From a virus, in IMG/VR virus record IMGVR_UViG_3300044611_000881, positions 1-26,922 of that record: 26,922 bases of DNA; one strand, 5' to 3'. This document shows, one piece after another, positions 7,019 to 26,922 of the stretch. Both the position numbers and the translations under genes were made by a program. The first letter of the stretch is position 1; the number at the start of each line of letters is the position of its first letter. The notes under the pieces are model-generated. The model saw nothing but the letters and a program-made list of their open reading frames with translations, made no database searches and was not told the DNA's origin.

Positions 7019-8514
7019 TTCTTATTTACTATTTCAAATTTAAGTTGTCTTTTATAAGTATCTACTTCTCCCGAAGAAAGAACTTTTATGTCTACAAAAT
7101 ATTGGTTTGGAACTTTATCTTTTGTATCAAAGATAAAATAATATTCATTTGATGTTTGATTTATTCTAGTCCAATCTTGGACAATAACTTCAGTTGTACC
7201 TTCGTTAACAAATACTCTGTAGTATGCCTTAAAATCAGGATATACAATATTTGAAGAATAAGCCTGTTTAATAGTTACCACAACTTTTCTTGTATCGGTA
7301 TTTAATATTTTTTCATCTTGTTTAATACCTGAAAAACTAAACCCGTAAGTTTCAGGGTTTTTTGATAGAGTACCAATTTGATAGTACTCGGTTGCGGGTC
7401 TTAGAATAAATTCATTGGTTATATTACCAATTGCTCTTCCATTTAGTGTACAGTTAACCCAAATATCGTTAAATTGACATGGTGTTGAATATCCTGTAAT
7501 TGCAGGTATTTCTACTTCGTATATACCTTGAGTTCTTAAAACTGTTGTTAAACCCGTTAAAGAAGATATTAAATCTTCATTTGAGTCTGCAATATTAACT
7601 GTTGGGTTAAAATCTAAATTCGTTGGTGTGCCGTCTATATAAGAATATAAGTATAATTTATTTACTTTATTCTCAAAAAATTTAGTTCTATCATCTAAAA
7701 TTAAATCATCATATGTTGTTTCTAAAAATGGTTCGTAGAATGTTTGTGTATGTCTTGTAAAGAAACCTACCGAATAATTTTCAGTTAATCCTGTTATATT
7801 TTCTATTTCGGGGTCAAATGAAATAATATATCCTGTAACACCTGTTGTTGCACCCGTTAAAATATTATTAATTTCATTAGTCATGTTAAATTCAATATTC
7901 TCATTACCAAATTCAAAATATTGAGTATCGACTAATGTTAAGGCTGAAAAATTTATAACATTTCCAATACCGTTATTTAAATTGTTATAAACACCATTTG
8001 TACTCCACCCACTAATTGTTGTTGAATTAAACCAATTTGATGGTCGATTAGAATATGACTTGTCATTATCCCTGTAGTTTCTTGATGTTAAACTAGCGTT
8101 AGAAGAATTTAAATTATTATTGTTGTAATAATCATAACCAACACCTTCATCCCAATTTTGTGGTGTACCTGTTAAATTAAATTTAGGTATTCTAAACAAA
8201 TTTAAATTAAAACCCGTGGCTCTTCTTCTATTGTCAGATGTTGTTGTGTTTAATAATTCATAATTAAACATTATCGTATTGGTCATTTTAAACACATGAG
8301 TCATTGGACTTCCTGTGTAAACAATCCCATTTGTGATTTTTTCTTGTAGTTGTGACAAATCTATGTCAAAAATAAATCTTGAATATCCTGGTGTGGATAA
8401 AACATTATCAACCCTACCAAAAAATAATTCAGTTACAGGATTTTGTCCTGTATTTGTAGTACCGCTAGAAATAATTGTGTTATTTCTATTTAGATATGAT
8501 TTGTGTATAGACAT
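7015..8514 (-). CDS. Putative beta-rich virion structural protein
   Basis: A 499-aa protein rich in Asn, Thr, Tyr and Gly with almost no charged clusters, typical of beta-structured tail or baseplate proteins. It has no signal peptide. The middle part (about 205-310) reads 'FNMTNEINNILTG', then 'GYIISF', then 'SVGFFTRHTQTFYEPFLETTY'. That order loosely recalls DNRLRE/CBM96-like beta sandwiches, in which a final 'F-x-S/T-R ... P-x-L-x-x-x-Y' strand is usual. I consider this only a hint. The C-terminal 100 residues ('QDWTRINQTSNEYYFIFDTK', then 'FVDIKV') look like a separate beta domain. It has its own late-type promoter motif and shares an ATGA overlap with the 243-aa gene that follows. A baseplate, fibre-attachment or decoration role is inferred from context. 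Confidence 0.75.
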   Translation of the reverse strand: MSIHKSYLNRNNTIISSGTTNTGQNPVTELFFGRVDNVLSTPGYSRFIFDIDLSQLQEKITNGIVYTGSPMTHVFKMTNTIMFNYELLNTTTSDNRRRATGFNLNLFRIPKFNLTGTPQNWDEGVGYDYYNNNNLNSSNASLTSRNYRDNDKSYSNRPSNWFNSTTISGWSTNGVYNNLNNGIGNVINFSALTLVDTQYFEFGNENIEFNMTNEINNILTGATTGVTGYIISFDPEIENITGLTENYSVGFFTRHTQTFYEPFLETTYDDLILDDRTKFFENKVNKLYLYSYIDGTPTNLDFNPTVNIADSNEDLISSLTGLTTVLRTQGIYEVEIPAITGYSTPCQFNDIWVNCTLNGRAIGNITNEFILRPATEYYQIGTLSKNPETYGFSFSGIKQDEKILNTDTRKVVVTIKQAYSSNIVYPDFKAYYRVFVNEGTTEVIVQDWTRINQTSNEYYFIFDTKDKVPNQYFVDIKVLSSGEVDTYKRQLKFEIVNKK

Positions 8515-8536
8515 TAACTATAAATATTAGTTAATG
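8512..8536 (-). promoter_or_regulatory. Late promoter motif within a perfect inverted repeat over a start codon
   Basis: On the plus strand CATTAACTA (8512-8520) and TAGTTAATG (8528-8536) are a perfect 9-bp inverted repeat around TAAATAT. Read on the minus strand, ATATTTATA (8527 down to 8519) fills the loop and runs two bases into the 3' arm. That arm also holds the ATG of the structural gene starting at 8514. The 5' arm is the end of the hub gene including its stop codon. Read-through RNA from the hub gene would fold the start codon into the stem. Confidence 0.55.
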
Positions 8537-10086
8537 CGTAAGTTTTTATTTAAAATTTTACTATCGGCATCGTAAAGTTTTGTTAAAATAGTTTGTACTT
8601 GTGTACCATCAACACTTTGTGAATCTGGACCCATATTATGGTATGGATGTACGTGAGAAACTAAAAACCTAACAATTAATTCTATAAGGTCCAATAATTG
8701 TTCACCTCTCACCATAGAATTAGTATTTGGAATCATAATATTTTCAATAAATTGTTGCGGTATTGTTGTTCCTGAAAAATCTATAGTATCAAAATCAATT
8801 TTGGTTACACCTACTTGTGTATCATGTGAAAGAAAAAAAGAAGTATTGGCAACATTTATTCCGTAAACAATAGGGTTAAATTCGTATTGTTCATTAGGGA
8901 TTTTATATGTCTGAAATGATTTTAGTGGTCCTAATCTATCTTTTTCTGAAACGTATCCAATACCTCTAGTTGAGTCTTGCTTGTTTAAGTATATACCTTC
9001 AAAGAATCTCCTTAAGTTTATAACTTCAGTTGCTGAAACATCAACATTTAATTCGTATTTATCCCAAAAATTTTTTGATGGTTGGAAAACGAAAGGTATT
9101 GGTTCATTTATTGTTGTTCCTGTTCCCCCCAAAGAAAACGAACCACTATTCATAAGTGATATTACATTATTAATACCAGATATAATGTCATCACGAGAAT
9201 CAAATGTAAAATCTTTTTGATATACAGGACCAATTAAACTTTCTTCAGGAAAACTATAAAAACCATTTAAAACACTTGTTGAGTATACGGGTCTATAATC
9301 AGATATTTTATATATCCTAACGTATCCCGAAAACCTACCCAATAAACTACCAACACCACCATATACATCATACTCAACCAAATATTTTATTTTTTGTACT
9401 ACATTTCCTTGTTCTGTAAAAGTTTGATTAGTATTTTCAACTTTTCTCGTATCAAATTTTTGTAATCCAACCATACCAAATTTTTTGTTAAAGATTGGAT
9501 TACCATTTTCATTCACATTTTTTTTGTATACTCTAAACATTGCTGAGTCAGGAGGTAATAACATATCAGAATTATTTCTACCTAAAATCCCAATTGTTTT
9601 TACATCTGGATATAATCCTGACTGTGATGTTTCTTTCATTGAACCATCTTTATTTCTAATATCTTGTGGTAGTTTGTTTCTTTCCCCTTTTGATGTAAAT
9701 GCTTGAGAAGATTCAAAAGGTTCTCCAATTAATTCGTTTGGACTTGAAAACATACCTTGTATGTAGTACTTATTTCTGTCTTGGTAATCTAAATTATAAT
9801 ATACGACATGAACTGATTCATTTATTTGTGGTACTTGGCTAAAAAATTGTGGTAATAACGGCATAAAAACCAATGGGTCAACATCGGTCCAATAGTCATT
9901 TTCTGTTAAAGGTTTACCTGTTACAGGGTTTTTAAACGAATTAATAATATCTTCATTTTGCCAGTTATCCACTTGCAAACGAATTCTGCCCAAATTCATT
10001 GGGTCTTTGTTGTCAATTACTCTACCAAAATTAAAAACCTGTGTATATTTTTTTGGTAAATTTGTATAATCATTAAAACGATTCAT
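8527..10086 (-). CDS. Baseplate/hub protein with gp5/VgrG-type OB-fold N-terminus
   Basis: A 519-aa protein. Its N-terminus 'FNFGRVIDNKDPMNLGRIRL' (residues 18-37) is the hallmark of the OB domain of T4 gp5, P2 gpV and VgrG-like proteins (pattern G-x-V-x-D-x-x-D-P-x-x-x-G-R-x-x-V). This OB domain continues to about residue 125 ('NKYYIQGMF'). A large middle region is beta-rich and unrecognised. Near the C-terminus is 'SHVHPYHNMGPDSQ' (about 480-493), which resembles the His-x-His metal-binding tip of gpV-type spikes. I see no lysozyme domain, unlike T4 gp5. The gene overlaps its upstream neighbour by one base (TAATG). The role as a central baseplate/hub or spike component is well supported; the exact T4 counterpart is not. 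Confidence 0.8.
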   Translation of the reverse strand: MNRFNDYTNLPKKYTQVFNFGRVIDNKDPMNLGRIRLQVDNWQNEDIINSFKNPVTGKPLTENDYWTDVDPLVFMPLLPQFFSQVPQINESVHVVYYNLDYQDRNKYYIQGMFSSPNELIGEPFESSQAFTSKGERNKLPQDIRNKDGSMKETSQSGLYPDVKTIGILGRNNSDMLLPPDSAMFRVYKKNVNENGNPIFNKKFGMVGLQKFDTRKVENTNQTFTEQGNVVQKIKYLVEYDVYGGVGSLLGRFSGYVRIYKISDYRPVYSTSVLNGFYSFPEESLIGPVYQKDFTFDSRDDIISGINNVISLMNSGSFSLGGTGTTINEPIPFVFQPSKNFWDKYELNVDVSATEVINLRRFFEGIYLNKQDSTRGIGYVSEKDRLGPLKSFQTYKIPNEQYEFNPIVYGINVANTSFFLSHDTQVGVTKIDFDTIDFSGTTIPQQFIENIMIPNTNSMVRGEQLLDLIELIVRFLVSHVHPYHNMGPDSQSVDGTQVQTILTKLYDADSKILNKNLRIN

Positions 10087-10286
10087 TATTTTCTTTTCTT
10101 ATATTCTTCCAAAATTTTATTATAAGAATTTTCAAGTTTATCTACTTGATATGTCATTTGTATGATAGACTCTTTAACTTTTTCATGTTCGTTTGCAAGT
10201 ATATCCATACATTCCATAAGTTCTTTATTATTAAAACTACTTGGTTCTGAAATTATTTTTTCTATTTTTTCTAAATCTATAATCAT
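10086..10286 (-). CDS. Small coiled-coil protein in the baseplate operon
   Basis: A 66-aa highly charged protein that is nearly all helical. Residues about 24-64 ('ECMDILANEHEKVKESIIQ' onward) have heptad-like spacing of Ile, Met, Val and Leu, so a coiled coil is likely. It is tied to both neighbours: it starts inside the end of the 724-aa gene (ATGA) and its stop overlaps the start of the hub gene (TAATG). Such tight coupling suggests a fixed ratio and a role as a small baseplate or chaperone-like partner, but the family is unknown. Confidence 0.75.
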   Translation of the reverse strand: MIIDLEKIEKIISEPSSFNNKELMECMDILANEHEKVKESIIQMTYQVDKLENSYNKILEEYKKRK

Positions 10287-12457
10287 AAAACATTTCCTTT
10301 TATTTTAACAAAACCAGTTTGTGATATTATACCTATTTCTTTTGCGGTTACGGTTGTTTGAGCATAACCATTTTGTGTCATTTCGTCAATTATTGCCTCA
10401 TTTAAACTTTTAGTCATTAATAACCCAATATTTGGTTTTCCACTTGGCATATCACCTGTTGGAACTCCTTGCTCCTCCATTTTTTCAATAAATTTTGTTA
10501 ATATGCTAGTTGGGCTCATGCCTGGTTTTGTTGCCGCGGCTATATAGTTTATTATTGTTGGTACGTCAGAAGATGTTCCTCTTAGTGCGTTTTTTAGTGC
10601 TAAACTTAAAGAAACAATATTCAATAATTCATCAACAACGTTTTTACATCTTCTAAAATCTTGAATTGTTGCAAGTGTGGTCAGAGCTAAATTAACACCA
10701 GCTAATATTAGTTTTTGTTTATTTGTTAATATTTCATCTGCGGTCTGTCTCACAATTGATGCCATCAAAGATTTTAAATTTTGTTTTATCGCAATAAAAA
10801 GTTGTTTAACAAAAATCGCCTGTATTTTAGAAGTAATGTTTATAACCATTTTTCTAAATTCTTTAAAGAAATCTTCAGTTGTATCAATACCATCAACATA
10901 ATCTTTTTGTAATGCCTTTGCCATTACAAATAATGGAAATAAATGTTTTGGAGATAAAACTGAATTTAAAACTGCTATTGGTAATAGATTTATAAATTCT
11001 TCATTAATGATATTTGAAAAATTAAATTGCGGATATTCAACTAACCAATCGGGATTTGAACCTAAGCTGTCTAACATGTTTTGAGCTGCTTTATCTGCAT
11101 CCTGAGCGGTCATATCTTCAACTAAAAATTCATCAATTAACGATAATGAACCATCAACATTTACAGGTAATGACAACGCACCACAATCCTTATACTGCAC
11201 TACGTTTTCTTGAATATTTTTTATTTTATTTTCAATTTCTAATAAATCTTCTTCTGTTAATTCAAAAAAACTATCATCAATTTGGTCTGAAGAATCTAGT
11301 TTACCAGTTCCTGTAACATCTATTTCTTGTTTATTGTCAAAACATAAACCAAGAACTCTTTGTATTAGTTTTTCAAATACTGTTTGATTTCTTAAATCAT
11401 CATAACCAATCAAATTTTTCATGTTTATTGAACCAATCAACAGATTTAAAACATTAGAAAAAAGTTCGTTAAAATTAAGAACATCAATTGTGTTTAGATA
11501 GTCCAATAAAAATTCTGCGACACTGTTTCCACCAATTCTTTTTTTTAGTGTAACTTTAAAAAATTCACCTGTTAATGTTGGTGTTGGGTCTTTAATGAAT
11601 TCAATATCAAATAAGTCTTGTCCTGAAACCCCAACATACGGTGTACTGTATTCATCCTCATAAGTTTGCCCTTCTTTTTGTATTCTATTCCATAATTCGC
11701 GATTAAACGACCTTGGAATTGAAGATGCGGTAAATGGTTTAAATTCATAAACGTACTTACCAGGAACTCCATTTGGATTTGTTTGTAATGTTTTTCCAAA
11801 TATATCTATATTTGATACTTTTATATAAATTTCTTTGTCTTGGTAATTTTGTTCCTGAGAACACCCTAAAGCACTTACATATTCATTTTTTAATATGTCT
11901 TTTATTTCGTCTTTAGTTCTAGTTACGGCTTGAATAAGTGAGTTTCTTAAAGCTGCAATCGCGTCTTTTTTGGTATCTGTTTTAAAAACATTAAGTTCAG
12001 CTCTTCTAATATCTTTTTTAGTCTTTTCTAATAACCCATTTAATCTTTTTTGTTCAGGGACGTTATTAGTTACAACCGCATTGGTTAATTCTTTTTGAAA
12101 TTGTGCTTCTTTTTGTTTTAACTCTTTTATTTTTTCTGTTTCGTTATTTATATTTTTACCATCAACGTCGTTATTTTCTTTTGATGTAATATATGTTTGA
12201 ACCAATTTTCTTAATTGATTTTCACTATTTTGTTTAAAAGATTTTGGTAAATCTTTTGCCTTTTGAGTGTAAGTCTCAACTTTCTTTTTTACTTTAGATT
12301 CTGTGGCCTCAATTTCTTTAGATGTTTGACTATTGGAATTTTGAGGATTTTTTCTTAGTTCTTTTTGCTGTTCATTAATTCTTTTTGTTTTTTTATATGA
12401 ATTAATGACTTTATTTAATTTTTTATAATCTTCCGTAGTTGTTGTTGATTCGGACAT
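10283..12457 (-). CDS. Large putative tail/baseplate structural protein
   Basis: A 724-aa protein I do not recognise. Residues about 1-190 are very charged and form long helices or coiled coil rich in Lys, Glu and Gln. Residues about 200-310 look globular and beta-rich ('GKYVYEFKPFTASSIPRSFN'). The rest is helical. A hydrophobic stretch at about 565-605 ('LILAGVNLALTTLATIQDF') could be buried in the tail or be membrane-active. Its place between a late promoter and a hub protein, and its length, suit a baseplate hub component or a short tape-measure-like protein. T4 gp29 (590 aa) and gp27 are conceivable equivalents by position only. Start ATG 12457 follows the upstream gene after 10 bases. 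Confidence 0.75.
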   Translation of the reverse strand: MSESTTTTEDYKKLNKVINSYKKTKRINEQQKELRKNPQNSNSQTSKEIEATESKVKKKVETYTQKAKDLPKSFKQNSENQLRKLVQTYITSKENNDVDGKNINNETEKIKELKQKEAQFQKELTNAVVTNNVPEQKRLNGLLEKTKKDIRRAELNVFKTDTKKDAIAALRNSLIQAVTRTKDEIKDILKNEYVSALGCSQEQNYQDKEIYIKVSNIDIFGKTLQTNPNGVPGKYVYEFKPFTASSIPRSFNRELWNRIQKEGQTYEDEYSTPYVGVSGQDLFDIEFIKDPTPTLTGEFFKVTLKKRIGGNSVAEFLLDYLNTIDVLNFNELFSNVLNLLIGSINMKNLIGYDDLRNQTVFEKLIQRVLGLCFDNKQEIDVTGTGKLDSSDQIDDSFFELTEEDLLEIENKIKNIQENVVQYKDCGALSLPVNVDGSLSLIDEFLVEDMTAQDADKAAQNMLDSLGSNPDWLVEYPQFNFSNIINEEFINLLPIAVLNSVLSPKHLFPLFVMAKALQKDYVDGIDTTEDFFKEFRKMVINITSKIQAIFVKQLFIAIKQNLKSLMASIVRQTADEILTNKQKLILAGVNLALTTLATIQDFRRCKNVVDELLNIVSLSLALKNALRGTSSDVPTIINYIAAATKPGMSPTSILTKFIEKMEEQGVPTGDMPSGKPNIGLLMTKSLNEAIIDEMTQNGYAQTTVTAKEIGIISQTGFVKIKGNVL

Positions 12458-17104: not shown

Positions 17105-18034
17105 TTAAATAATTTTGACAAATTTATCTATTATCACTTCCCAACTAAAATTATCCATACCATACTGTCTAATTTTTTCTCTCATTTCTAATGACTTGTT
17201 TCTATTATTAATAATAATATTTTTCACATAATCAATATCTTTTATTTTTGATTCAGGAATTACATCTATAAAAGGTAATGATAAATCTAAATTAGCGGTG
17301 CTATATTCAGAGATAACTAAACCTAATCCCGACATTAAGGCTTCTTTAGTTACAAGAGGGTCCGCTTCACCATCACTTAATAATACTAAATTCGCATAAT
17401 CAGTTAAATTATCGTATAATATTTCTTTACTCCATTCACCTAAATAATTTGGTGAATTAAGATTAAACCTATTATCGTCTGAATTACCAGCAAAAAATAA
17501 ATTTTCAATATTTTGATATAGGTACTGTCGTTTTCTATCTGTAATTTTAGCTAAGTATATACTTCTGTCTTTATGTTGAGGATTGTCTGTATATCTGAAA
17601 AGGTCATGTCTGGCACCATTAGGTGTCACCTCAAGACGAGATGGGTCACAACCAAATTTTTGATATGTATTTTTAATTCCTTCTGACAAACAAAAAATTC
17701 TAAAATCACCTTCAATAAACGCTCTCATTAGATGTATGTAACCTCCATACTTCATAGGTTGTTCTAAATAACCAAAATGTGTTGTTGCTGCTTTATTTTT
17801 ACAATTAATGTGTGGTAATATACCGACAAAATTATCATATTGTAAATGAACAAAGTCAGGTTTAAAATTATTAACTAAATTTATTATTTCTTGTTGGTTT
17901 GGCGTGTTAACTATCTGAATTTCATGTCCTAACTTTTCAAGTTCTATTTTGTAATCCCAAATTAAAGCTTCTACAGCTCCCCAACCTTTAGGTGGTATTG
18001 GCATTATTCCTGGTCCTATTATTGATATTTTCAT
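17105..18034 (-). CDS. GT4-like (GT-B) glycosyltransferase
   Basis: A 309-aa transferase. It begins 'MKISIIGPGIMPIPPKGWGA' and 'VEALIWDYKIELEKLGHEI', the N-terminal nucleotide-independent domain of GT4 enzymes with its Gly-rich loop. 'SRLEVTPNGARHDLF' (about 151-165) is the linker motif (V-x-P-N-G-x-D) at the domain junction. 'ADPLVTKEALMSGLGLVISE' (about 233-252) is the donor-binding E-x7-E-like motif, here with Asp replacing the first Glu. The protein is shorter than most GT4 members (usually 350-400 aa), mainly in the C-terminal domain. It would add a hexose-type sugar to a glycan in the cytosol. Acceptor unknown. Confidence 0.88.
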   Translation of the reverse strand: MKISIIGPGIMPIPPKGWGAVEALIWDYKIELEKLGHEIQIVNTPNQQEIINLVNNFKPDFVHLQYDNFVGILPHINCKNKAATTHFGYLEQPMKYGGYIHLMRAFIEGDFRIFCLSEGIKNTYQKFGCDPSRLEVTPNGARHDLFRYTDNPQHKDRSIYLAKITDRKRQYLYQNIENLFFAGNSDDNRFNLNSPNYLGEWSKEILYDNLTDYANLVLLSDGEADPLVTKEALMSGLGLVISEYSTANLDLSLPFIDVIPESKIKDIDYVKNIIINNRNKSLEMREKIRQYGMDNFSWEVIIDKFVKII

Positions 18035-18036
18035 AC

Positions 18037-18717
18037 TTAATTATAAATTTGTTTCCCGTGTATTATTTTACTATTTGAATTCATACAATTTGAATTTCTA
18101 TGCGTTTCACATAAAAACACATTATCATCATATGTTGAGTTACATAACATGTATAAAACAGGCATGAACATATCTAAATAACCAAACTGAATTTGATGTA
18201 ATTTTTGTACCTCATCAAAACTATCTTCAATAATTTTAATAAAATTATTAAAATTATTTAAAAAAAATTCAACTTTATATATTGTTCCTCCACACGCCCC
18301 ATACATTTTAGAAGTAAATGTTGTTTTGTATTTTTTTTCAAAATAATCAATTATACTTTGGTTGATTAAATTTACTTTTAAACCTAAAATATTTGAGTCA
18401 AAATTAATATCAATTCTATTTCTTACTAAAACGTCATCTTCAAGATAAATTAAATATTTTGACGTAGATTTTTCAAACGCATTATAAAATCTATTCAACC
18501 ATTCTATTGTTTGGTCTTTATTAAAACCTTTTGGGTCATTACCTGTTTTAAATGTACTGTGTAAATAATGACAATTAAATCTATTTGATAATTCTGTTAG
18601 GTCTTCACCATCATCAGAAACTAAAGTTATATTTGAGTTTGGATATGTTTTTCTAAAATTTTCTAAAACAAAGTTAACTTTGTAATCATCTTTTATAACC
18701 TGTATATAAGCGTCCAT
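18037..18717 (-). CDS. GT-A fold glycosyltransferase-like protein
   Basis: A 226-aa protein starting with a GT-A-like strand and helix ('YKVNFVLENFRKTYPNSNIT', 'LVSDDGEDL') and containing 'KYLIYLEDDVLVRN' (87-100). Here Glu-Asp-Asp at 93-95 takes the place of the DxD metal/donor site. 'MYGACGGTIYK' (about 138-148) corresponds to the catalytic-loop region. This organisation is shared with small transferases of LPS and phage glycan clusters. No membrane segment. It overlaps the methyltransferase stop by one base and is followed after 2 bases by the GT4-like gene. Sugar unknown. Confidence 0.8.
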   Translation of the reverse strand: MDAYIQVIKDDYKVNFVLENFRKTYPNSNITLVSDDGEDLTELSNRFNCHYLHSTFKTGNDPKGFNKDQTIEWLNRFYNAFEKSTSKYLIYLEDDVLVRNRIDINFDSNILGLKVNLINQSIIDYFEKKYKTTFTSKMYGACGGTIYKVEFFLNNFNNFIKIIEDSFDEVQKLHQIQFGYLDMFMPVLYMLCNSTYDDNVFLCETHRNSNCMNSNSKIIHGKQIYN

Positions 18718-19337
18718 TATTTTTCTAATAAAAAAAATCCATTACCATATTGGAACTGTTTGGTCCATTTTATTTTAATTTCACCCATATTATAATCAAA
18801 GTTTTTTAACTTGTAACCCGATTTTCTAATTTTATTTATCCACCATTCTTCATCTTTTTTTGTAACGTGTGTGACATCCATTTCGTATTCTCTAATTCTA
18901 AATTTATCATTATCACCTAAAGGTATAACTAATAACACTTGATTAGATATTGAATAAAAATCGGATAATATGACATCAATTTTATCTTCATGAATGTGTT
19001 CTAATACATCTTTAGCAATAATTAAATCTACTGATTTTATAGCTTCGGATGCTAATTCATTTATCTTATATAATTTATTCTTAACTTGGGGTAACCCATT
19101 CTCAATTGCATACTCACTAATATCAACACCATAAATTTCTTTATCTGTTAACATATTTAAAGCATGTACTAAAAATCCTTTTGCACAACCATAATCTAAA
19201 GCACTTTCAAATTTAATATTATTTTTTATTGTTATTGCTTCAGGAATACTTCTGGTTGGTATCCATTGATAATTTTCGTACCCACTTATTTTTTTCTTTA
19301 CTCCGTTTTCGTAATAATCTTTATTAAATAAATTCAT
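18717..19337 (-). CDS. SAM-dependent class I methyltransferase
   Basis: A 206-aa enzyme of the Methyltransf_23/UbiG-like type. Motif I is 'ALDYGCAKGFL' (46-56), with acidic strand 2 at 'IYGVDISEYAI' (about 68-78). 'LIIAKDVLEHI' (about 104-114) is motif II/post-II, the VLEHI segment being characteristic of small-molecule and sugar methyltransferases. In a row of glycosyltransferases its likely substrate is a sugar hydroxyl or a glycan end, but the sequence does not show which. It is preceded by a 39-base very AT-rich gap after the radical SAM gene, in which I see no clear hairpin or promoter. Confidence 0.9.
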   Translation of the reverse strand: MNLFNKDYYENGVKKKISGYENYQWIPTRSIPEAITIKNNIKFESALDYGCAKGFLVHALNMLTDKEIYGVDISEYAIENGLPQVKNKLYKINELASEAIKSVDLIIAKDVLEHIHEDKIDVILSDFYSISNQVLLVIPLGDNDKFRIREYEMDVTHVTKKDEEWWINKIRKSGYKLKNFDYNMGEIKIKWTKQFQYGNGFFLLEK

Positions 19338-19376: not shown

Positions 19377-20420
19377 TTACGCAAATTCATTATGTTGTGT
19401 ATCAGTTAATATGTCATCAATCAATTCATTTTGAATTGCATACTTACAATACATACATGCGTGATGTCTTACCGAAGACGGTTTAGAATAAAATTCTTCA
19501 ATTCCGTCAATATCACAAACCATAAATTGTGATTCAGGAACATAATTGTAATTGTTCTCAATAGAAAGTTCAGCAGATGGACATACGTATACATAACCAT
19601 CAGTAAATAAAAATGGTTTTACCATGTGCATATAACAATGGTCATTCCTTCTTTCCCCTTTGTAATTAAAATCGGATAAAAATGCATATTTTAAATCCAT
19701 ATCTTTAATAACTTCTTTAATTTTTTCAATGTCTTTTTTAACCTCATCTATTTTTTTAATTGCATTAAATGCTATACGAGTTGGTATTTTGTGTTGTTCA
19801 ACCCAATCAATCATTTGTAAAAAATTTTCTGTTTTTTGAAATTTAGTTGCTAATTTTTTCTTGTTTTTGTCGGTCCATTCTCCCGTTACATTTGGATTAC
19901 TTGAAGTGTCAATTGATTCATCCCACACATACGCAGCTGACACTGTGGTTTCAGTACCATCAAAAACTGATAAGTCGTATTCATATCCCTCATAAAAACC
20001 ATATAAACCAAGCCTAACCCAAGAAAATAATTTTACAATGTCTTTACCAATTTTTTTTCCTAAATCCTTACCATTAGTACATAGTCCTAATTTAAACCCT
20101 AATCCATGCGCATATTCGGATATTTCTTTAAAATTAGGGTGTAATGTCGGTTCTCCACCACCAGTAAATTCAATACCAGTTACACCAATTTTTTTAAAAG
20201 AGTCTAATGCTTGTTTAACCTTTTCAAATGATAATCTATCTGTTAAATCTCTATTTGCGAAACAACAAAAACTACATGTTAAATTACATGCATTTATTAA
20301 TGATATGTGCGCCATGACTGGTGAAGGGGTCTTTCCTTCTTGAATCCTTTTTAATTTATCTAAATGTTTTAGCAATTTAACACTGTTACTAGTAAAACTT
20401 CTTCCCTGTACTTTTTTCAT
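19377..20420 (-). CDS. Radical SAM protein with C-terminal SPASM-like cysteines
   Basis: A 347-aa enzyme. The canonical cluster motif C-x3-C-x2-C is 'CNLTCSFC' (Cys45, 49, 52), followed by 'GIEFTGGGEPTLHP' (82-95), the SAM-binding GGE segment. The C-terminus has 'YVCPSAEL', 'FMVCDI' and 'HACMYCKYA', a set of cysteines typical of the auxiliary iron-sulfur cluster of SPASM/twitch enzymes. Such enzymes modify peptides, sugars or nucleosides by radical chemistry. In this setting a sugar or glycan modification is likeliest. An insertion around residues 150-190, rich in Thr and Asp, is unlike ordinary twitch domains. A very short frame sits just upstream (20425-20481). Confidence 0.9.
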   Translation of the reverse strand: MKKVQGRSFTSNSVKLLKHLDKLKRIQEGKTPSPVMAHISLINACNLTCSFCCFANRDLTDRLSFEKVKQALDSFKKIGVTGIEFTGGGEPTLHPNFKEISEYAHGLGFKLGLCTNGKDLGKKIGKDIVKLFSWVRLGLYGFYEGYEYDLSVFDGTETTVSAAYVWDESIDTSSNPNVTGEWTDKNKKKLATKFQKTENFLQMIDWVEQHKIPTRIAFNAIKKIDEVKKDIEKIKEVIKDMDLKYAFLSDFNYKGERRNDHCYMHMVKPFLFTDGYVYVCPSAELSIENNYNYVPESQFMVCDIDGIEEFYSKPSSVRHHACMYCKYAIQNELIDDILTDTQHNEFA

Positions 20421-20484: not shown

Positions 20485-21456
20485 TTAAACCAATTTGAGT
20501 ATTGATTGTACTCGATTTATATATGTGTGATTTTCTTTTATGTAATCCATACCATCTTTTATAAATTTATAGTTAGTTCTATTCTCCATTGCTTTATAAA
20601 ACAATTTTGATGTGTCTGTTTCTAAAATACAATGACCTTCCATTTCATTATAAACTTCGGGAGAATTAGTCATACCTAAATGTCCATACGACATACTTTT
20701 CATAACCCTACAAGGTATATAACCATTTTTAATGTGTTCAGGTCCTCGGACATCAACACCCAATATTGATTTTTTAGTTCGATTTATAATTTCTTCTTTC
20801 GGTAGAGGATTAATCCAAGGATTATTTATTTTAAATTCAATATTATTTTTTTTACATTCTATTATAAAATCTTTAAAAGTACTGAAGTTTTCACAAACAC
20901 CGTTATTAGATAAATTACCACAAAAATAAATTATATTATCTCTTTTATAATTTATATCATCATAATTAAATTCATTTGGTAACAAATCTGTCGCCCATGA
21001 AATATATACTTTATCATAATCATCAATTTCATAATTAAATCTTTGGTTTTCAACCAAAACTTTATTGTTTGTTTTTTTCTCATAGTAACAAACAGGTCCT
21101 AATTTTTCATATTTTGATTTATCCATTGTGTACGAATAAACATGGTCTTTAATCCAAATATTATTACCTCTGACATCGAAGAATTTTTTAACACCAGCGT
21201 CAATGTATTTTTTAGGATTTGGACATACATGGACAAAATATATACTACTATCATTGAGCGGTATTTCATTATCCGCAAATCCTTCTGTCCAAAATATGCA
21301 ATTGGAAAAATCAAAATCTTTAGGGTAATTTTTATCATCAAACCAATAGGTGTCAAAACCTAAGTGTTTGAATCCTTGATAAAAACCGTAATGAATATAC
21401 GAATGAGTGTGTGAATAAAGAGGGTAACCCCAAATTATAACTTTCTGTTTTTTCAT
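20485..21456 (-). CDS. Putative glycosyltransferase (GT-B-like C-terminal domain)
   Basis: A 323-aa protein starting 'KVIIWGYPLYSHTHSYIHYG' and 'FYQGFKHLGFDTYWFDDK', a Rossmann-like N-terminus with the helix that follows strand 1 in GT-B enzymes. The C-terminal part has 'LGVDVRGPEHIKNGYIPCRV' and 'MKSMSYGHLGMTNSPEVYNE' (about 232-273). This corresponds to the R-x-x-E-x-x-x-x-G-x-x-x-x-S-x-x-x-x-V/E region in CgeB/GT1-like transferases. I assign the class but not the sugar. It starts four bases inside the carbamoyltransferase gene end (ATGA) and so is translated with it. Confidence 0.75.
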   Translation of the reverse strand: MKKQKVIIWGYPLYSHTHSYIHYGFYQGFKHLGFDTYWFDDKNYPKDFDFSNCIFWTEGFADNEIPLNDSSIYFVHVCPNPKKYIDAGVKKFFDVRGNNIWIKDHVYSYTMDKSKYEKLGPVCYYEKKTNNKVLVENQRFNYEIDDYDKVYISWATDLLPNEFNYDDINYKRDNIIYFCGNLSNNGVCENFSTFKDFIIECKKNNIEFKINNPWINPLPKEEIINRTKKSILGVDVRGPEHIKNGYIPCRVMKSMSYGHLGMTNSPEVYNEMEGHCILETDTSKLFYKAMENRTNYKFIKDGMDYIKENHTYINRVQSILKLV

Positions 21457-23024
21457 TTTTTAATTAACGTATCTTTTATTATAACATAATCCAATTCAGT
21501 GTTATCCAATACAAATAGTGCGTCATCAATCGTTGATAGAATTGGGTTACCACGTATATTAAATGACGTGTTTAGTAAAACATTAGTATCAGATATTTTA
21601 GAAAATTCTTTTAATAAATTATAGAAAAAATTATGACTTTCTTTAGTTACACATTGTAATCGTGATGAATTATCTTCATGTGTTATTGACGGTAATTTTT
21701 CTTTATATTCTTTTTTAACAACAGGTGCGTAACCCATATATTCTAAATTATTAAAATTTTTAGATTTAAAATATAAATTAGCATCTTCAATTAAACAAAA
21801 TGGTGCAAACGGTCTATACCATTCTCTAAATTTTACTTTAGAATTTAATATGTCTTTCATATTTGGAAATGACGGGTCACAAATTATACTTCTATTACCT
21901 AAAGCCCTTGGACCAACTTCAGAATCTTCATTACAAACTCCAATAATTTTACCCTCTTTTAATAAATTGGCGATTTTAGAAAATGTCGTTTTTTCATGAT
22001 TTCTACCAATCAATTTTTTTTCCATATCTTCTTCATCAAGCAATGGTAATCCGTTATATGCGATATTAACTTTTGTTTTTGGTTTGTAATATAAAAAATT
22101 CGAACCAAGCGACAATCCGCAATCATTTGGATTTGGTGGAACAAATAAATTAACATTATATTCATTTTTTATCCGTTCATTTAACAGAACGTTTAGTCCT
22201 CCACCACCAGTAATACAAACATTATTTACTGAATATTTTTTTAAAACCCCTTCAAAGATTCCAATAAAGGCATTTTCATATCCTTTTTGTGCTGTGGCAG
22301 CAAAATTAAATCCTTCTTGTCCTGATAAAAAATAATTGTCCAATGGATTTAACCAAGGAGACTCTAAATTTTTTAAATTATAACCTGTTTTTTCTGACAG
22401 TTTTTTCCAATTTTTATCAAAGTAAAACTGTGAAAAATATTTTGTTTTAGATTCATCTACAATACCATAAGCACATATACCCATCATTTTACCCGCTAAT
22501 GATAACATGTGTCTGGAATCTTTTGTAACTTCAGTAATACAACTTGATGCTAATAAATAACCACCACCAAAATCAGATGGTATGTTTTCAAGAAAATGTA
22601 TACCATTTTCATCTCCCATGTATATATTAAAATGTCCATCATCACCTCCACCATCGTATGAAATAATTAATGATTTATTAAATGGTGACTGATAGAACGC
22701 ACATGCTGCATGACTAAGGTGATGTCTACCATATCGAATATATTCTTTAGAATTAAAAACTTGTCTTAGAATGTTATGGTCTATCCAACCATCGGCAACA
22801 TCCATAACAACATCATAATCGTTACTAAATCCCCAATGTTTTTCGGCTATGTCTCTACAATCAGATAATATTTTTATGATATCTTCAGTTGAGTTGTCAA
22901 CATGTAACCTAAAATATCTTTTTTTAACAAGTCTTTCAATTTCAATAACGTGATAACTATTTTTTTCAGAGTCAAAAAACGTTATATTGGCATCGTGTCC
23001 AGCAAATAAACTAACTATTTTCAT
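21453..23024 (-). CDS. NodU/TobZ-type O-carbamoyltransferase
   Basis: A 523-aa enzyme that moves a carbamoyl group from carbamoyl phosphate, via carbamoyl-AMP, to a hydroxyl of a sugar or nucleoside. The N-terminal YrdC/Kae1-like domain begins 'VSLFAGHDANITFFD' and carries the metal-binding 'HHLSHA' (101-106). Also present are 'SYDGGGDDG' (122-130) and 'TGGGGLNVLLNERI' (272-285). The C-terminal domain has 'EVGPRALGNRS' (369-379), 'REWYRPFAPFC' (400-410) and 'LLNTSFN' (483-489). All catalytic blocks of the family are intact and the length is typical. In a glycan cluster the product is most likely a carbamoylated sugar. Confidence 0.95.
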   Translation of the reverse strand: MKIVSLFAGHDANITFFDSEKNSYHVIEIERLVKKRYFRLHVDNSTEDIIKILSDCRDIAEKHWGFSNDYDVVMDVADGWIDHNILRQVFNSKEYIRYGRHHLSHAACAFYQSPFNKSLIISYDGGGDDGHFNIYMGDENGIHFLENIPSDFGGGYLLASSCITEVTKDSRHMLSLAGKMMGICAYGIVDESKTKYFSQFYFDKNWKKLSEKTGYNLKNLESPWLNPLDNYFLSGQEGFNFAATAQKGYENAFIGIFEGVLKKYSVNNVCITGGGGLNVLLNERIKNEYNVNLFVPPNPNDCGLSLGSNFLYYKPKTKVNIAYNGLPLLDEEDMEKKLIGRNHEKTTFSKIANLLKEGKIIGVCNEDSEVGPRALGNRSIICDPSFPNMKDILNSKVKFREWYRPFAPFCLIEDANLYFKSKNFNNLEYMGYAPVVKKEYKEKLPSITHEDNSSRLQCVTKESHNFFYNLLKEFSKISDTNVLLNTSFNIRGNPILSTIDDALFVLDNTELDYVIIKDTLIKK

Positions 23025-23803
23025 TTTGATAAGTAATTAAATAACGGTAAGTGTGAACCGTTTAATATTATTTTTAAATCTACAATCTCAGGATAAAGTT
23101 CAAATAAAATTGATAATGCAAATTGCTCATTATTAACACAATTATTTTTAATCATATAATTTTCAAAAATTTTATTTATTTCATTATAAATCCTAATCAT
23201 GATATCGGTACCACCGCCAAATAAAGTACCAACGGTTGTACAGTTATTATCCCATATATAATTTTCAATATCTAAATTAGGAAAATATTTTAATGTGTTT
23301 TGGTTTCCTTGAATTATGAATTTATCTTTTTTTAATTTTGATGTGTTTGGCCACGTATTATTTAAATCAAAATTATCGAAAAACCTACTACAACCAGCAT
23401 CCATCCATAAAAAGTAATCCGAACCAAAAACATTATCTTCAATTGATTTTTTAATCCAACCAAATTTAGAATATTGTATTACATTATATAGTGATGTCTT
23501 ACATTCTATTCTATCGGTATCTTTCATTTTTGATTTAAAAAAATCACTATTTATTATTTCATCAATTTTTTCATTCCATTTAAAAAATGGAATTTCATCA
23601 AGTTTTTGTACAAAAATTTTAGTATTACTCAAGTCCCGTCTTTGTTTAACAAAGTCAACTAAATCTTCTTCTATGAAGATAGACATTGGGGTTTTTAATT
23701 TTAATGTTGTGTCAAACCATTCTAAATATTGTGACATTTTTCTCCCGTCACCATTTTTATCTCGGTTAATATTGAATAAGGCTGTAACTATTTCAGGTTT
23801 CAT
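23021..23803 (-). CDS. HtrL/YibB-family putative glycosyltransferase
   Basis: A 260-aa protein. 'EIVTALFNINRDKNGDGRKM' (4-23) is followed by 'YLEWFDTTLKLKTPMSIFIE' (26-45), then 'SLYNVIQYSKFGWIKKSIED' and 'YFLWMDAGCSRFF' (about 129-141). This order is that of the HtrL/YibB family, whose members occur in LPS and capsule clusters (WlaTC-like) and are regarded as GT-A-type transferases. The Asp of 'WMDAG' is probably the donor/metal-site residue. It overlaps the carbamoyltransferase by 4 bases and the GT6 gene by 1, so all three are translationally coupled. Confidence 0.85.
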   Translation of the reverse strand: MKPEIVTALFNINRDKNGDGRKMSQYLEWFDTTLKLKTPMSIFIEEDLVDFVKQRRDLSNTKIFVQKLDEIPFFKWNEKIDEIINSDFFKSKMKDTDRIECKTSLYNVIQYSKFGWIKKSIEDNVFGSDYFLWMDAGCSRFFDNFDLNNTWPNTSKLKKDKFIIQGNQNTLKYFPNLDIENYIWDNNCTTVGTLFGGGTDIMIRIYNEINKIFENYMIKNNCVNNEQFALSILFELYPEIVDLKIILNGSHLPLFNYLSK

Positions 23804-24510
23804 TAACTTCTTAATTTTTCTTTATTCATGTATTTCCATTTATCTCTTTGTATCATAATTGGATTCATGTCAGGTAAATTCATACCTTCAGGATAAATGT
23901 AATTGTATGATAACAATAATGGATTTTTTTTATTAAAATACCAATTTAAATAAGATTCATCATGCCAAACAGGTATTTGATTATTTTTTAAATCATTATC
24001 AATATTTTCAGATAAAATTTTTGACATTGCTAAAAATTCTTCAACTCTTCCACCATTAAAACATCCTTGATAATAATATTTTCCTTCGGTATATGGGATA
24101 CTACATGATATTTCAGATTTTCTTTCATACGGTAAAAAATGAGGTGCTTGATGGAAGTGTAATGGGTGATTACAACCAACTAAAAAATCATTATCAATTT
24201 TTGGTAAAACCTCGTCACCAATTTTTTGAACCGCCAACATGTTAACATTAAAAAAAAATATATAATCAAATTTAGATATTTCATCTTTAATTTTATTTAA
24301 CAAATGAAATCTCATCATTGAGTCATATGGCCAACCCATTTTTTCTTGTTTAATCTGAATCAGATTTGATTTAGATTCAAACATTTTATCTGTAAATAAA
24401 AAAAATGTTTTGTCGTGAGCAGGTAAAAAATTAGTATTTACACTATTGTAAAAATCATTAAAAAAAATATCATATTTACCTAAAGATATTGTGAATATGG
24501 CGATTCTCAT
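23803..24510 (-). CDS. Family GT6 glycosyltransferase with NVN in place of DxD
   Basis: A 235-aa enzyme of family GT6, the family of human ABO and alpha-1,3-galactosyltransferases. GT6 enzymes add alpha-Gal or alpha-GalNAc to a galactose end. Recognisable blocks are 'FFLFTD' (36-41), 'GWPYDSMMRFHLL' (59-71), 'FFFNVNMLAV' (85-94), 'YYQGCFNGG' (146-154) and 'VWHDESYLNWYF' (181-192). The position of the metal-binding Asp-x-Asp is Asn88-Val-Asn90, as in bacterial GT6 enzymes that work without a metal. There is no membrane anchor, as expected for the compact bacterial/phage type. A GT6 gene is also known in the cyanophage P-SSM2, so phage carriage is established. Confidence 0.93.
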   Translation of the reverse strand: MRIAIFTISLGKYDIFFNDFYNSVNTNFLPAHDKTFFLFTDKMFESKSNLIQIKQEKMGWPYDSMMRFHLLNKIKDEISKFDYIFFFNVNMLAVQKIGDEVLPKIDNDFLVGCNHPLHFHQAPHFLPYERKSEISCSIPYTEGKYYYQGCFNGGRVEEFLAMSKILSENIDNDLKNNQIPVWHDESYLNWYFNKKNPLLLSYNYIYPEGMNLPDMNPIMIQRDKWKYMNKEKLRS

Positions 24511-25337
24511 TTTAAAATTCTATTTTCAATTTTTCTTGTTTCTTGAATAATGTCTGAGTGTCTATCCCAAACAATTTTCATATTTTTGTGGTTTGATTTA
24601 TAAAACCAAGGTTTATGACCCCCTGTCGTGTTATGTGTACCACCCCAAGAAAAATCACTTATAAAATCTGTCCAATAACAACCAACAACTTTATTTAATT
24701 GTTTAGCCATTCTGAAACATAAATCATGGTCATCCATATCTAAAGGTGCAAATTTTTCGTCTAAATAATTTAAATCATATAAGTCATCGTGATTAATCGC
24801 TAAAGGACCTCGATTAACACATTGTCTAATTGCAAAAACATCACGAGACAATCCCCAAGGACGACCTGCGTGGTCAACATGTTGAATTATGTCACACCAA
24901 CAATTATCTAAATCTTCTTCCATTCCCAAATGTTTGCTATTTGGATTAAACACCCAATTATGTGAACAATTAGATGAAACGGCAAAAACATCATTATATG
25001 TTCTAAAAGGTTTTGTTAATCTTACGTTCCATGCATCTTCATTCATCAACATGTCGTCTTGAATTATTATTACATGGTCAGATTCTGCCCTTTTTAATCC
25101 AATGTTATTTGCTTTAGTTTCAAATACGTCATCTGCGTATTCTAAAACTATTTTCATCTTTGGATTTTGTTTTATGAAAGTTTTGGTAATTTCTTCACTG
25201 TTATCAGAACAACCATCTAATACGATTATTGTTTCATAACTACCTTTTGTTAATTTTTTTATTCTTTGTAAGCTCTCATCTAATAAAAAACCTTTATTAT
25301 GTACTGTAAGAATTAAAGAATAACTTGTTGTTGACAT
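24507..25337 (-). CDS. GT2 family glycosyltransferase
   Basis: A 276-aa GT-A enzyme with a textbook start: 'YSLILTVHNKGFLLDESLQR' (6-25), then 'TIIVLDGCSDNSEEI' (36-50, with the nucleotide-binding 'DGCSDNS'), then 'KANNIGLKRAESDHVIIIQD' (75-94) and the donor/metal site 'QDDM' (93-96). 'LDMDDHDLCFRM' (about 198-209) is the ED(D)xD-type acceptor-side block with the catalytic base. A tail rich in Trp, His and Gly ('SWGGTHNTTGGHKPWF') is typical of phage members. It overlaps the GT6 gene by 4 bases. Sugar specificity is unknown. Confidence 0.9.
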   Translation of the reverse strand: MSTTSYSLILTVHNKGFLLDESLQRIKKLTKGSYETIIVLDGCSDNSEEITKTFIKQNPKMKIVLEYADDVFETKANNIGLKRAESDHVIIIQDDMLMNEDAWNVRLTKPFRTYNDVFAVSSNCSHNWVFNPNSKHLGMEEDLDNCWCDIIQHVDHAGRPWGLSRDVFAIRQCVNRGPLAINHDDLYDLNYLDEKFAPLDMDDHDLCFRMAKQLNKVVGCYWTDFISDFSWGGTHNTTGGHKPWFYKSNHKNMKIVWDRHSDIIQETRKIENRILK

Positions 25338-25338
25338 T

Positions 25339-26124
25339 TTATAATTTTAGTGATTTTTTCCAAAGATTCAATATTTCAATATTAGATAAAGTTGAAACTT
25401 CGTTTTCAGTTTCTTTATTACCAAAAAACTCAGTACCCGTTAAAAAACATTCGTCTTTAACTAAACAGGCAACCTCACCTAATGAAGAATGATATACTCT
25501 ACCAACCATATCATACATTTCTTGTTTATTGGTTGTGTGTCCATACTCTATAATTTTTTCATTTAAAAGAGGTTTAACAAATTTATCATAATATGGTTGT
25601 TCACCTATGTGACCAAATAAATATATTTTTTCGCATCCATCTTTTAATGCTCGTATTATTGACATGTGTGTTTGTTTTCTATGTTCTATAGAACCGATAA
25701 CACCTGCAATTTTATTTAAATTATTTTTATCTGTTTGGTGTAAATTTTCTTTTAAGTTAGGAATTATTGAAAATTTACCGTTGTATTCAGAATGATACTT
25801 TCTATGTTCATTGTGTAAAAAAACAGCTTCGTCCCAATACTGTTTTATTTTCCCAACAGGAAACCACCATTTTTCATGACACGATAAAAGAACAACATCA
25901 ACATCAGGCCTTTTTTCTAAATTATAAAAATGATAAATTAATTTATCATTTGGCTTTAAAGTTAAATCATTTTCAATATTACCTGATTTACATTTGTCTC
26001 TATGCCAATTTTGATTACCATATAAAGTACACTCTAAACCATTCTCATTAAAAAAATTACATAGGTTTATCAATGCGACTGTTGAACCTCCTTTATCTGT
26101 ATATCCCGAAACAATCTTAATCAT
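25339..26124 (-). CDS. Short GT-B-like glycosyltransferase or glycan-binding relative
   Basis: A 261-aa protein. The start 'MIKIVSGYTDKGGSTVALIN' and 'LCNFFNENGLECTLYG' is the GT4-type N-terminal strand, Gly-rich loop and helix. 'AGVIGSIEHRKQTHMSIIRA' (about 139-158) and 'EKIYLFGHIGEQPYY' are the beginning of the C-terminal nucleotide-binding domain. The normal donor-binding E-x7-E block is only weakly represented ('YHSSLGEVACLVKDECFLTG'). It is about 100 residues shorter than standard GT4 enzymes. It sits one base before the GT2 gene and overlaps the partial upstream gene by one base. Confidence 0.75.
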   Translation of the reverse strand: MIKIVSGYTDKGGSTVALINLCNFFNENGLECTLYGNQNWHRDKCKSGNIENDLTLKPNDKLIYHFYNLEKRPDVDVVLLSCHEKWWFPVGKIKQYWDEAVFLHNEHRKYHSEYNGKFSIIPNLKENLHQTDKNNLNKIAGVIGSIEHRKQTHMSIIRALKDGCEKIYLFGHIGEQPYYDKFVKPLLNEKIIEYGHTTNKQEMYDMVGRVYHSSLGEVACLVKDECFLTGTEFFGNKETENEVSTLSNIEILNLWKKSLKL

Positions 26125-26922
26125 TATTTAACTATTTTTATATGTTGATGTATTTTTTTATTTTTTTGAATTTCTTGTAAGAATATTTGAAAATCTGGCC
26201 TTATTGTTTCAATAAGATTTAAATTTTCGTATGTTCTATCAATAACAAATGAAGAATTATCAATAAAAATATTTTTGTTATGTTTACTTAATTTAGTACT
26301 AAAATCATTAAAAATTAATGATGTTTCATAATCAGATTTAAACCAATCATTTAGTTTTATATTAGAAGGTGTAGTACAAATAAAGTTAACTAAATTACCA
26401 AACGGATTTGTCGTGTTGTTTGAAAAAATGTTATATTGTGAACCATTATTTAACAAATGAAATCCATATTGATTATCTCCTGTTGTTGTTAAAATTAAAG
26501 AAGTACTGAATATAGATTTATTTGTGTTGTACGATGTTGGAAATTGACAACCAAAATTATTTTTATTTTTTTTGTAGGTTTTAAATGAATTGGAAAAAAC
26601 GTCATTAATTATTTCTACGTTATCATTAGTTATAAACACTAATTCAAACCCATCTAATAAATTTTCTTCATATTTTATGATGTCTAGATTTTTTTGTAAA
26701 TCATCATAAAACCCATTTATAAGTTTAACATTTTCTAATGATTGCAATTCTTCAAAATTATGTGAATTAGAAATTATAATAATGTTAGCATTATCATTTA
26801 TTTTTTTTATGTTATCTAATACTGATTTTGTTTTATCAAAATTGGAAGATTGTACTATTACACCAAATTTAAAATTTTCTTTTTCTGAGTCTGTTGGTAT
26901 ATCAGGAACATAAATAATTGGT
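26124..26922 (-). CDS. Partial gene running off the window, unknown glycan-cluster protein
   Basis: The minus-strand frame stays open from its stop at 26124-26126 to the end of the window, so the gene is cut and its start is not visible. A TTG at 26745-26747 is only an internal Leu codon: the 58 codons upstream of it read as ordinary protein ('KFGVIVQSSNFDKTKSVLDN', 'NANIIIISNSHNFEEL'). The visible part has a repeated alpha/beta layout (strand, helix, 'FELVFITNDNVEIINDVF') that would suit a GT-A-like transferase N-terminus. I see no DxD site, and the rest ('NKSIFSTSLILTTTGDNQYG') is unfamiliar. A glycosyltransferase is possible from context only. Confidence 0.75.
   Translation of the reverse strand, partial: PIIYVPDIPTDSEKENFKFGVIVQSSNFDKTKSVLDNIKKINDNANIIIISNSHNFEELQSLENVKLINGFYDDLQKNLDIIKYEENLLDGFELVFITNDNVEIINDVFSNSFKTYKKNKNNFGCQFPTSYNTNKSIFSTSLILTTTGDNQYGFHLLNNGSQYNIFSNNTTNPFGNLVNFICTTPSNIKLNDWFKSDYETSLIFNDFSTKLSKHNKNIFIDNSSFVIDRTYENLNLIETIRPDFQIFLQEIQKNKKIHQHIKIVK

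Follow-up and report, generated by a model that had tools for sequence, protein, structure and literature searches.

To judge from its sequence, the gene at positions 23803–24510 of the viral DNA analysed here (the window: 26,922 nucleotides, IMG/VR record IMGVR_UViG_3300044611_000881, positions 1–26,922) encodes a real, intact and probably active glycosyltransferase of family 6 (GT6), predicted to be of the metal-independent kind and found in an unusual place. The reading favoured here, held with modest confidence, is that this metal-independent NxN enzyme would transfer galactose (Gal) within a phage glycan cluster, where it would have taken the place of a DxD GT6, with the donor-site triplet QGC kept. 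The gene and its key residues are located as follows.

23803–24510, minus strand: GT6 glycosyltransferase of 235 aa; intact ORF with ATG start (Pfam, NCBIfam, PDB search, AF2 model)
24241–24249, minus strand: NVN replacing DxD (Asn88-Val89-Asn90), aligned with BoGT6a Asn95-Ala96-Asn97
24061–24069, minus strand: donor-site triplet QGC, residues 148–150; Cys150 aligned to BoGT6a Gly157 and ABO Ala268
23956–23967, minus strand: WHDE (Trp182, His183, Asp184, Glu185), with Glu185 as the predicted catalytic residue from the alignment
23839–23841, minus strand: Lys224, aligned counterpart of BoGT6a Lys231, a diphosphate contact according to the available text of PMC3961637

The GT6 identity proposed in the earlier note was borne out by matches of the ORF to Pfam PF03414 (Glyco_transf_6; E 3.6e-26, 92.1 bits against a cut-off of 25), to NCBIfam NF041524, 'family 6 glucosyltransferase' (261.4 bits against a cut-off of 250), and to phrog_3317 of PHROGs (1.8e-44), by a PDB sequence search in which BoGT6a of Bacteroides ovatus was the best solved relative (4ayj, E 6.6e-50), and by an AF2 model (pLDDT 96.1) with a TM score of 0.96 to BoGT6a 4cj8, indicating a GT-A fold of the GT6 kind. 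Another IMG/VR record (IMGVR_UViG_3300042347_000649, 36.1 kb) carried the same locus, with 3 mismatches across the 9117 bp compared.

The preserved core blocks and the Asn-Val-Asn in place of Asp-x-Asp, both described earlier from the letters alone, were recovered in the alignment, where the position of the catalytic Glu was occupied by Glu in 84 of 84 NxN rows and 95 of 95 DxD rows. Judged by the table of substrate contacts of BoGT6a in the available text of PMC3961637, the contact residues were retained at Y13, W60, R67, N88, H115, W182-H183-D184-E185 and K224, and replaced at T10 (by L), N69 (D63), T70 (S64), A96 (V89), T134 (P127) and G157 (C150); also conserved was N90, which is not itself a substrate contact in BoGT6a. 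The tail of the window enzyme reads KEKLRS, and BoGT6a His239 and Arg243 fell outside the aligned fragment; Arg234 is likely the counterpart of Arg243. Since the same source describes BoGT6a as a metal-independent NxN enzyme using UDP-GalNAc, it can be soundly inferred by analogy that the window GT6 would need no metal. As a soluble, retaining enzyme of this type it would hold the ribose and diphosphate by Asn88 and the peptide backbone in place of an ion, use Glu185 as the catalytic residue, and have the departure of UDP aided by Lys224 and probably also by Arg234.

The window GT6 stops 11 residues beyond Lys224. Viral GT6s had a median of 7 residues after this Lys and at most 20 in 92 of 96 cases, against a median of 39.5 in bacterial GT6s, with at least 30 in 64 of 78. 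The long C-terminal stretch of BoGT6a is likened to lipid-binding domains in the available text of PMC3961637, so the short-tailed phage GT6s are probably soluble. The tail Arg, present in the window, was found in none of the 51 phage DxD-QGC rows, in 40 of the 77 other viral DxD rows and in 58 of 77 bacterial NxN rows; because of its occurrence in those 40 viral DxD rows and its absence from 19 bacterial NxN rows it is not diagnostic of metal independence.

GT6 proved to be far from restricted to the modest bacterial set and cyanophage P-SSM2 that the earlier note had listed beside the vertebrates: tblastn detected it in 71 phage records out of 50,697 (64 of the 71 being named as phages of Synechococcus or Prochlorococcus), and an alignment scan returned 488 IMG/VR stretches and 218 stretches in genome contigs. 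The comparison with P-SSM2 was, moreover, misleading, its GT6 carrying DVD and not NxN. The loci analysed were those most like the window, 80 from each scan (of 488 viral and 218 genome stretches), a choice which biases the motif counts; these were made without two copies of the window (L001, L004) and a split ORF (L074). The 98 viral GT6 ORFs besides that of the window comprised 93 DxD, one DxE and four NxN (DVD in 45 of the 98 and DAD in 42 more), while the 80 bacterial loci comprised 75 NxN, four NxT and one DxD. With DxD or DxE in 94 of 98 viral and NxN or NxT in 79 of 80 bacterial cases, it is the NxN site, rather than the phage setting, that makes the window gene an exception. In the available text of PMC3961637 (2014), nearly all bacterial GT6s are given as NxN and two cyanophages are counted, and GT6 and GT11 have already been reported in phages (available texts of PMC12016548 and PMC12053484). 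Among the matches listed in the open-licence literature, no title or start of an abstract describes a GT6–HtrL cluster or a phage NxN GT6. In the P-SSM2 locus (L009) a GT11 gene is annotated at 5740–6534 and passes Pfam; in the available text of PMC12016548, the GT11 described there is presented as the first from a phage genome. Two human faecal scaffolds labelled as phage (L006, L010) carried NxN GT6s grouping in the tree with those of gut Bacillota, and these scaffolds may be bacterial DNA.

A close relative was found in L186 (IMGVR_UViG_3300025674_007494), an independent metagenomic phage contig whose NIN-QGC GT6 was 59.7% identical to that of the window and lay in the same gene order (GT1–exonuclease–dUTPase–GT2–GT6–HtrL–carbamoyltransferase (NodU)). 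A third locus, L187, contained a NAN-QGC GT6 with 43% identity. The three GT6s formed a clade with support 100/96 and were the only aligned rows with LNW after the catalytic block. The neighbouring genes of the window are given below.

24507–25337, minus strand: GT2 glycosyltransferase upstream of GT6 (PF00535, 4.5e-12; 76% to L186)
23021–23803, minus strand: HtrL_YibB family protein, predicted GT-A glycosyltransferase (PF09612; AF2 model)
21453–23024, minus strand: NodU/TobZ-like O-carbamoyltransferase (PF16861, E 1.7e-57; TobZ 3ven, E 3.5e-47)
20485–21456, minus strand: 323-aa protein, a recurrent neighbour of HtrL (56 loci with homologues, reaching 64% in the rows shown)
19377–20420, minus strand: radical SAM protein (PF04055, 2.8e-13; 70% to L214, the sole locus matched)
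18717–19337, minus strand: methyltransferase (59% to L214, the sole locus matched)
18037–18717, minus strand: 226-aa protein (homologues in 24 loci, 24–32% in the rows shown)
17105–18034, minus strand: GT4-like glycosyltransferase, phrog_33732 (E 1.7e-123; homologues in 62 loci, 53–63% in the rows shown)

The GT2, GT6, HtrL_YibB, GT4-like, O-carbamoyltransferase, radical SAM and methyltransferase genes would together form a glycan-building cluster, in which the radical SAM protein is perhaps a sugar-modifying enzyme. By their coordinates the junctions are as tight as claimed before, with overlaps of 4 bp between GT2 and GT6, 1 bp between GT6 and HtrL and 4 bp between HtrL and the carbamoyltransferase, which presumably couple translation. 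The window also contains T4-like phage markers (prohead protease, major head protein, PhoH); the best 15 of 2492 relatives of its capsid protein were scattered across several phages. Near the capsid genes, at 6287–12457, lie four large minus-strand genes (243, 499, 519 and 724 aa) in which no Pfam family was found above the cut-off. Two genes at 25339–26921, GT2-like and encoding a 261-aa protein, respectively, seem equivalent to a single 616-aa gene of L186 (2624–4474).

The proposal that GT6, HtrL and the carbamoyltransferase act on the same end group held up only as a recurring neighbourhood of the first two. An alignment scan of IMG/VR with HtrL returned 52 loci including that of the window, as compared with the window's own locus alone in a single-sequence scan, and 42 of the 52 (41 of 51 without the window's) had a GT6 at most 6 kb from HtrL, as did 23 of 30 HtrL clusters at 90% identity. 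All 42 pairs were on the same strand, HtrL preceding GT6 in 30 of them and following it in 12. Within the same distance of HtrL, GT11 was found in 38 loci and carbamoyltransferase in 8, just 4 of which, window included, had GT6 as well. In the reverse view, HtrL was within 6 kb of GT6 in only 5 of 96 viral loci, again including the window. The QGC triplet occurred in all 39 readable HtrL-linked GT6 rows (of 41; 22 of 22 clusters) and in 14 of the 59 GT6 scan clusters; inside the scan set it was present in 4 of 4 HtrL-linked versus 10 of 55 unlinked clusters (Fisher p 0.002, with related sequences being non-independent).

In the 6-kb flanks of all loci, homologues were counted for the GT4-like (62), HtrL (56), 323-aa (56) and 226-aa (24) genes; the carbamoyltransferase had 7, and the radical SAM and methyltransferase genes one (L214), and thus only the GT6, HtrL, GT4-like and 323-aa genes recur widely. 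L214, the home of the 70% radical SAM match, is a cyanophage-like cluster; it unites homologues of seven of the eight genes that lie between 17.1 and 24.5 kb in the window. The window carbamoyltransferase was 58–60% identical to genes of three cyanophages or marine viruses and matched the Pfam carbamoyltransferase domains, its score for the NodU equivalog NF041651 being 158.5 bits against a cut-off of 1000. The genomes of Bellamy, SynMITS9220M01 and AG-345-E15 had HtrL and carbamoyltransferase alongside a QGC-type GT6. Stenotrophomonas and Xanthomonas phages carried HtrL and carbamoyltransferase, and no phage so named appeared in the GT6 tally, indicating that this pair can travel without GT6.

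As to the origin of the NxN gene, locus pairs with an HtrL identity of 32–47.5% were compared. The GT6 identity averaged 54.7% in D–D pairs (66 pairs, lowest 34.9%) and 33.0% in D–N pairs (63 pairs, highest 37.6%), the ranges overlapping at 34.9–37.6% and all 63 D–N pairs coming from three NxN rows. Such GT6 divergence beyond that of HtrL fits replacement by a bacterial-type gene. In a tree built without the DxD and QGC columns, the trio of window, L186 and L187 joined the bacterial NxN rows, BoGT6a and two faecal scaffolds with weak support (86/54). On these comparisons it appears likelier that a bacterial-type NxN GT6 replaced the DxD GT6 usual beside HtrL, with QGC kept, than that the site was altered in place. 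The latter course, in which the HtrL-linked GT6 lineage would have changed its own metal site without gene replacement, either in the window trio and L002/L023 (DxD to NxN) or in cyanophages (NxN to DxD), is rather unlikely, albeit with several points in its favour: one clade of all 19 phage QGC rows was not rejected (p 0.307 with the motif columns out, p 0.645 with QGC in) and stood 8.4 log units above the free tree when the QGC columns were included, the minimum number of D/N changes on the tree was 2, and both QGC and the HtrL link are common to the two site types. Against it, the free tree was 21 log units better with the motif columns out and placed the trio with the bacterial NxN rows, and the excess of GT6 over HtrL divergence in the D–N pairs would be left to account for. 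In the first tree the window was alone on a branch of 1.03 inside a clade with bacterial NxN rows (95/91); this placement was dropped because, once L186 and L187 were included, the branch became shorter and the grouping was lost (38/2). Later trees were computed without L003, which has a long branch.

In the favoured reading, the enzyme would most likely use UDP-Gal and attach galactose by an alpha linkage to an acceptor of the beta-galactoside type on the glycan built by the phage cluster. Gal rather than GalNAc is the better guess for the donor from the sequence: according to a hypothesis in the available text of PMC4692239, GalNAc use requires Gly at ABO position 266 or 268, and QGC, which corresponds to 266–268, has Gly at neither. 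GalNAc or another sugar is a distinctly less probable donor; it would agree with the use of UDP-GalNAc by the nearest solved enzyme, BoGT6a, and no QGC enzyme with a known donor was found in this analysis, but the position of Gly157 in BoGT6a is taken by Cys150 in the window. Phage glycosyltransferases have been argued to modify the host O-chain (available text of PMC7029224); the glycan of the window's phage may be carried by either the host surface or the virion.

The window GT6 need not use the fucosylated acceptor of BoGT6a, as a search at E up to 0.1 found no GT11 in the 26.9-kb window or in the 36.1-kb record behind L001. Elsewhere, our own HMM placed a GT11 no more than 6 kb from GT6 in 66 of the 96 viral loci, directly adjacent in 27, and in 60 of the 80 genome loci, directly adjacent in 41. 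Pfam confirmed GT11 in all eight proteins checked (L184, L214, L002, L009, L013 and three fusions, L114, L142 and L150). Among ten annotated cyanophage records, six had a gene labelled GT11 or alpha-1,2-fucosyltransferase lying one or two genes upstream of GT6. Single-chain GT6–GT11 fusions were recognized by Pfam in bacterial proteins from a Hoeflea MAG (L114, 647 aa) and from Planctomycetota (L142, 543 aa; L150, 547 aa), a strong sign that both enzymes act in sequence; such fusion proteins would build an A/B-type antigen by two successive reactions. Other fusions included a bacterial 953-aa ORF combining GT6, GT2 and GT1/GT4 domains (L123, 6001–8862) and an NxN GT6 domain behind an FkbM methyltransferase in L002 (4739–5998) and L023 (5392–6702), both of which records also contain a GT11 gene. 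The HMMs for GDP-mannose dehydratase and GDP-fucose synthase both matched 76 viral and 21 genome loci and, being indistinguishable, were not used.

That the phage recently acquired an ordinary LPS or capsule glycosyltransferase from its host, without any particular link to the adjacent genes, is improbable: the best bacterial GT6 was indeed nearer to the window (45%) than the best viral DxD GT6 (41%), and the bacterial genes often adjoin GT11, as counted above, but the GT2–GT6–HtrL–NodU order is repeated in L186, the tail is of the short phage type, and LNW and QGC are common to the well-supported trio. Decay or inactivity of the gene is the least credible of all, since its departures at 14 of the 55 columns conserved among NxN rows, the highest of all rows (9 being the next highest among 84 others) and a reason to think that specificity may have drifted, are partly common to L186 or L187 and occur in an intact ORF with retained catalytic residues, a confident model close to ligand-bound BoGT6a and a dN/dS of about 0.17 against L186 (NG86; dN 0.33, with dS of 2.0 saturated).

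The HtrL_YibB neighbour matched PF09612 with 65.7 bits (cut-off 24.1), a family annotated by Pfam as of 'unknown function', and scored 64.1 bits against the 264.9 of the YibB equivalog TIGR02192. By sequence its best PDB match had E 0.77, nothing notable, and no match to PF03414 was listed at E up to 1, its likeness to GT6 being in fold alone. An AF2 model from 32 sequences, across which a W-x-DAG motif was invariant, reached pLDDT 93.5; Foldseek against the PDB returned GT6 enzymes as the 20 best (best E 6.4e-7, TM about 0.5, rmsd 6.1), and VIA-align placed BoGT6a at the top (Z 13.0, rmsd 3.7, 191 aligned), with LARGE1 (Z 12.8) and the PBCV-1 capsid glycosyltransferase (Z 12.2) tied within 1. 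The model thus points to HtrL_YibB as likely a second GT-A glycosyltransferase with GT6 folds among its closest, which suggests a concrete candidate function for a family so far annotated without one; the available text of PMC4172580 places it in bacterial LPS/LOS loci.

The wider value of the analysis is in the recurring gene cluster and the HtrL fold prediction. Blood-group-type (ABO-related) enzymes are common in phages, pointing to ABO-like glycans of phage make. It is a tentative, somewhat doubtful proposal that in one branch of a mobile phage glycan cluster centred on two enzymes of GT6-like fold (GT6 proper and HtrL_YibB), a metal-independent GT6 took over from the metal-dependent one, the QGC donor code staying unchanged; if true, a single pathway would have naturally switched its cofactor use by an isofunctional swap, and the phage of the window would make a blood-group-B-like, carbamoylated glycan. 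Similar clusters allow comparison of two natural forms of what is seemingly a single pathway step, one having the metal site and one lacking it.

Compared with known systems, the window GT6 resembles BoGT6a in its NxN site, catalytic Glu, conserved Lys and fold, but differs from it by an identity of about 40%, in having QGC and Leu in place of AGG and Thr10, and in lacking the long bacterial C-terminal tail. The HtrL protein shares its Pfam family with E. coli YibB, albeit below the equivalog cut-off. The human ABO transferase and bovine alpha3GT have the fold and WHDE core in common with the window GT6, with 24–25% identity in the structural match, but are metal-dependent DVD enzymes anchored in the membrane (available text of PMC3961637). 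P-SSM2 has a phage GT6 (PSSM2_268) with a similarly short tail and LRS end, in contrast with a DVD site, an AGG triplet and a position in the basal viral group of the tree. The cyanophage QGC-type GT6s (Bellamy gp202, S-PRM1, S-CAM9 and others) share QGC and the short tail with the window, yet have a DAD site, no tail Arg, mostly 27–39% identity and, often, GT11 nearby.
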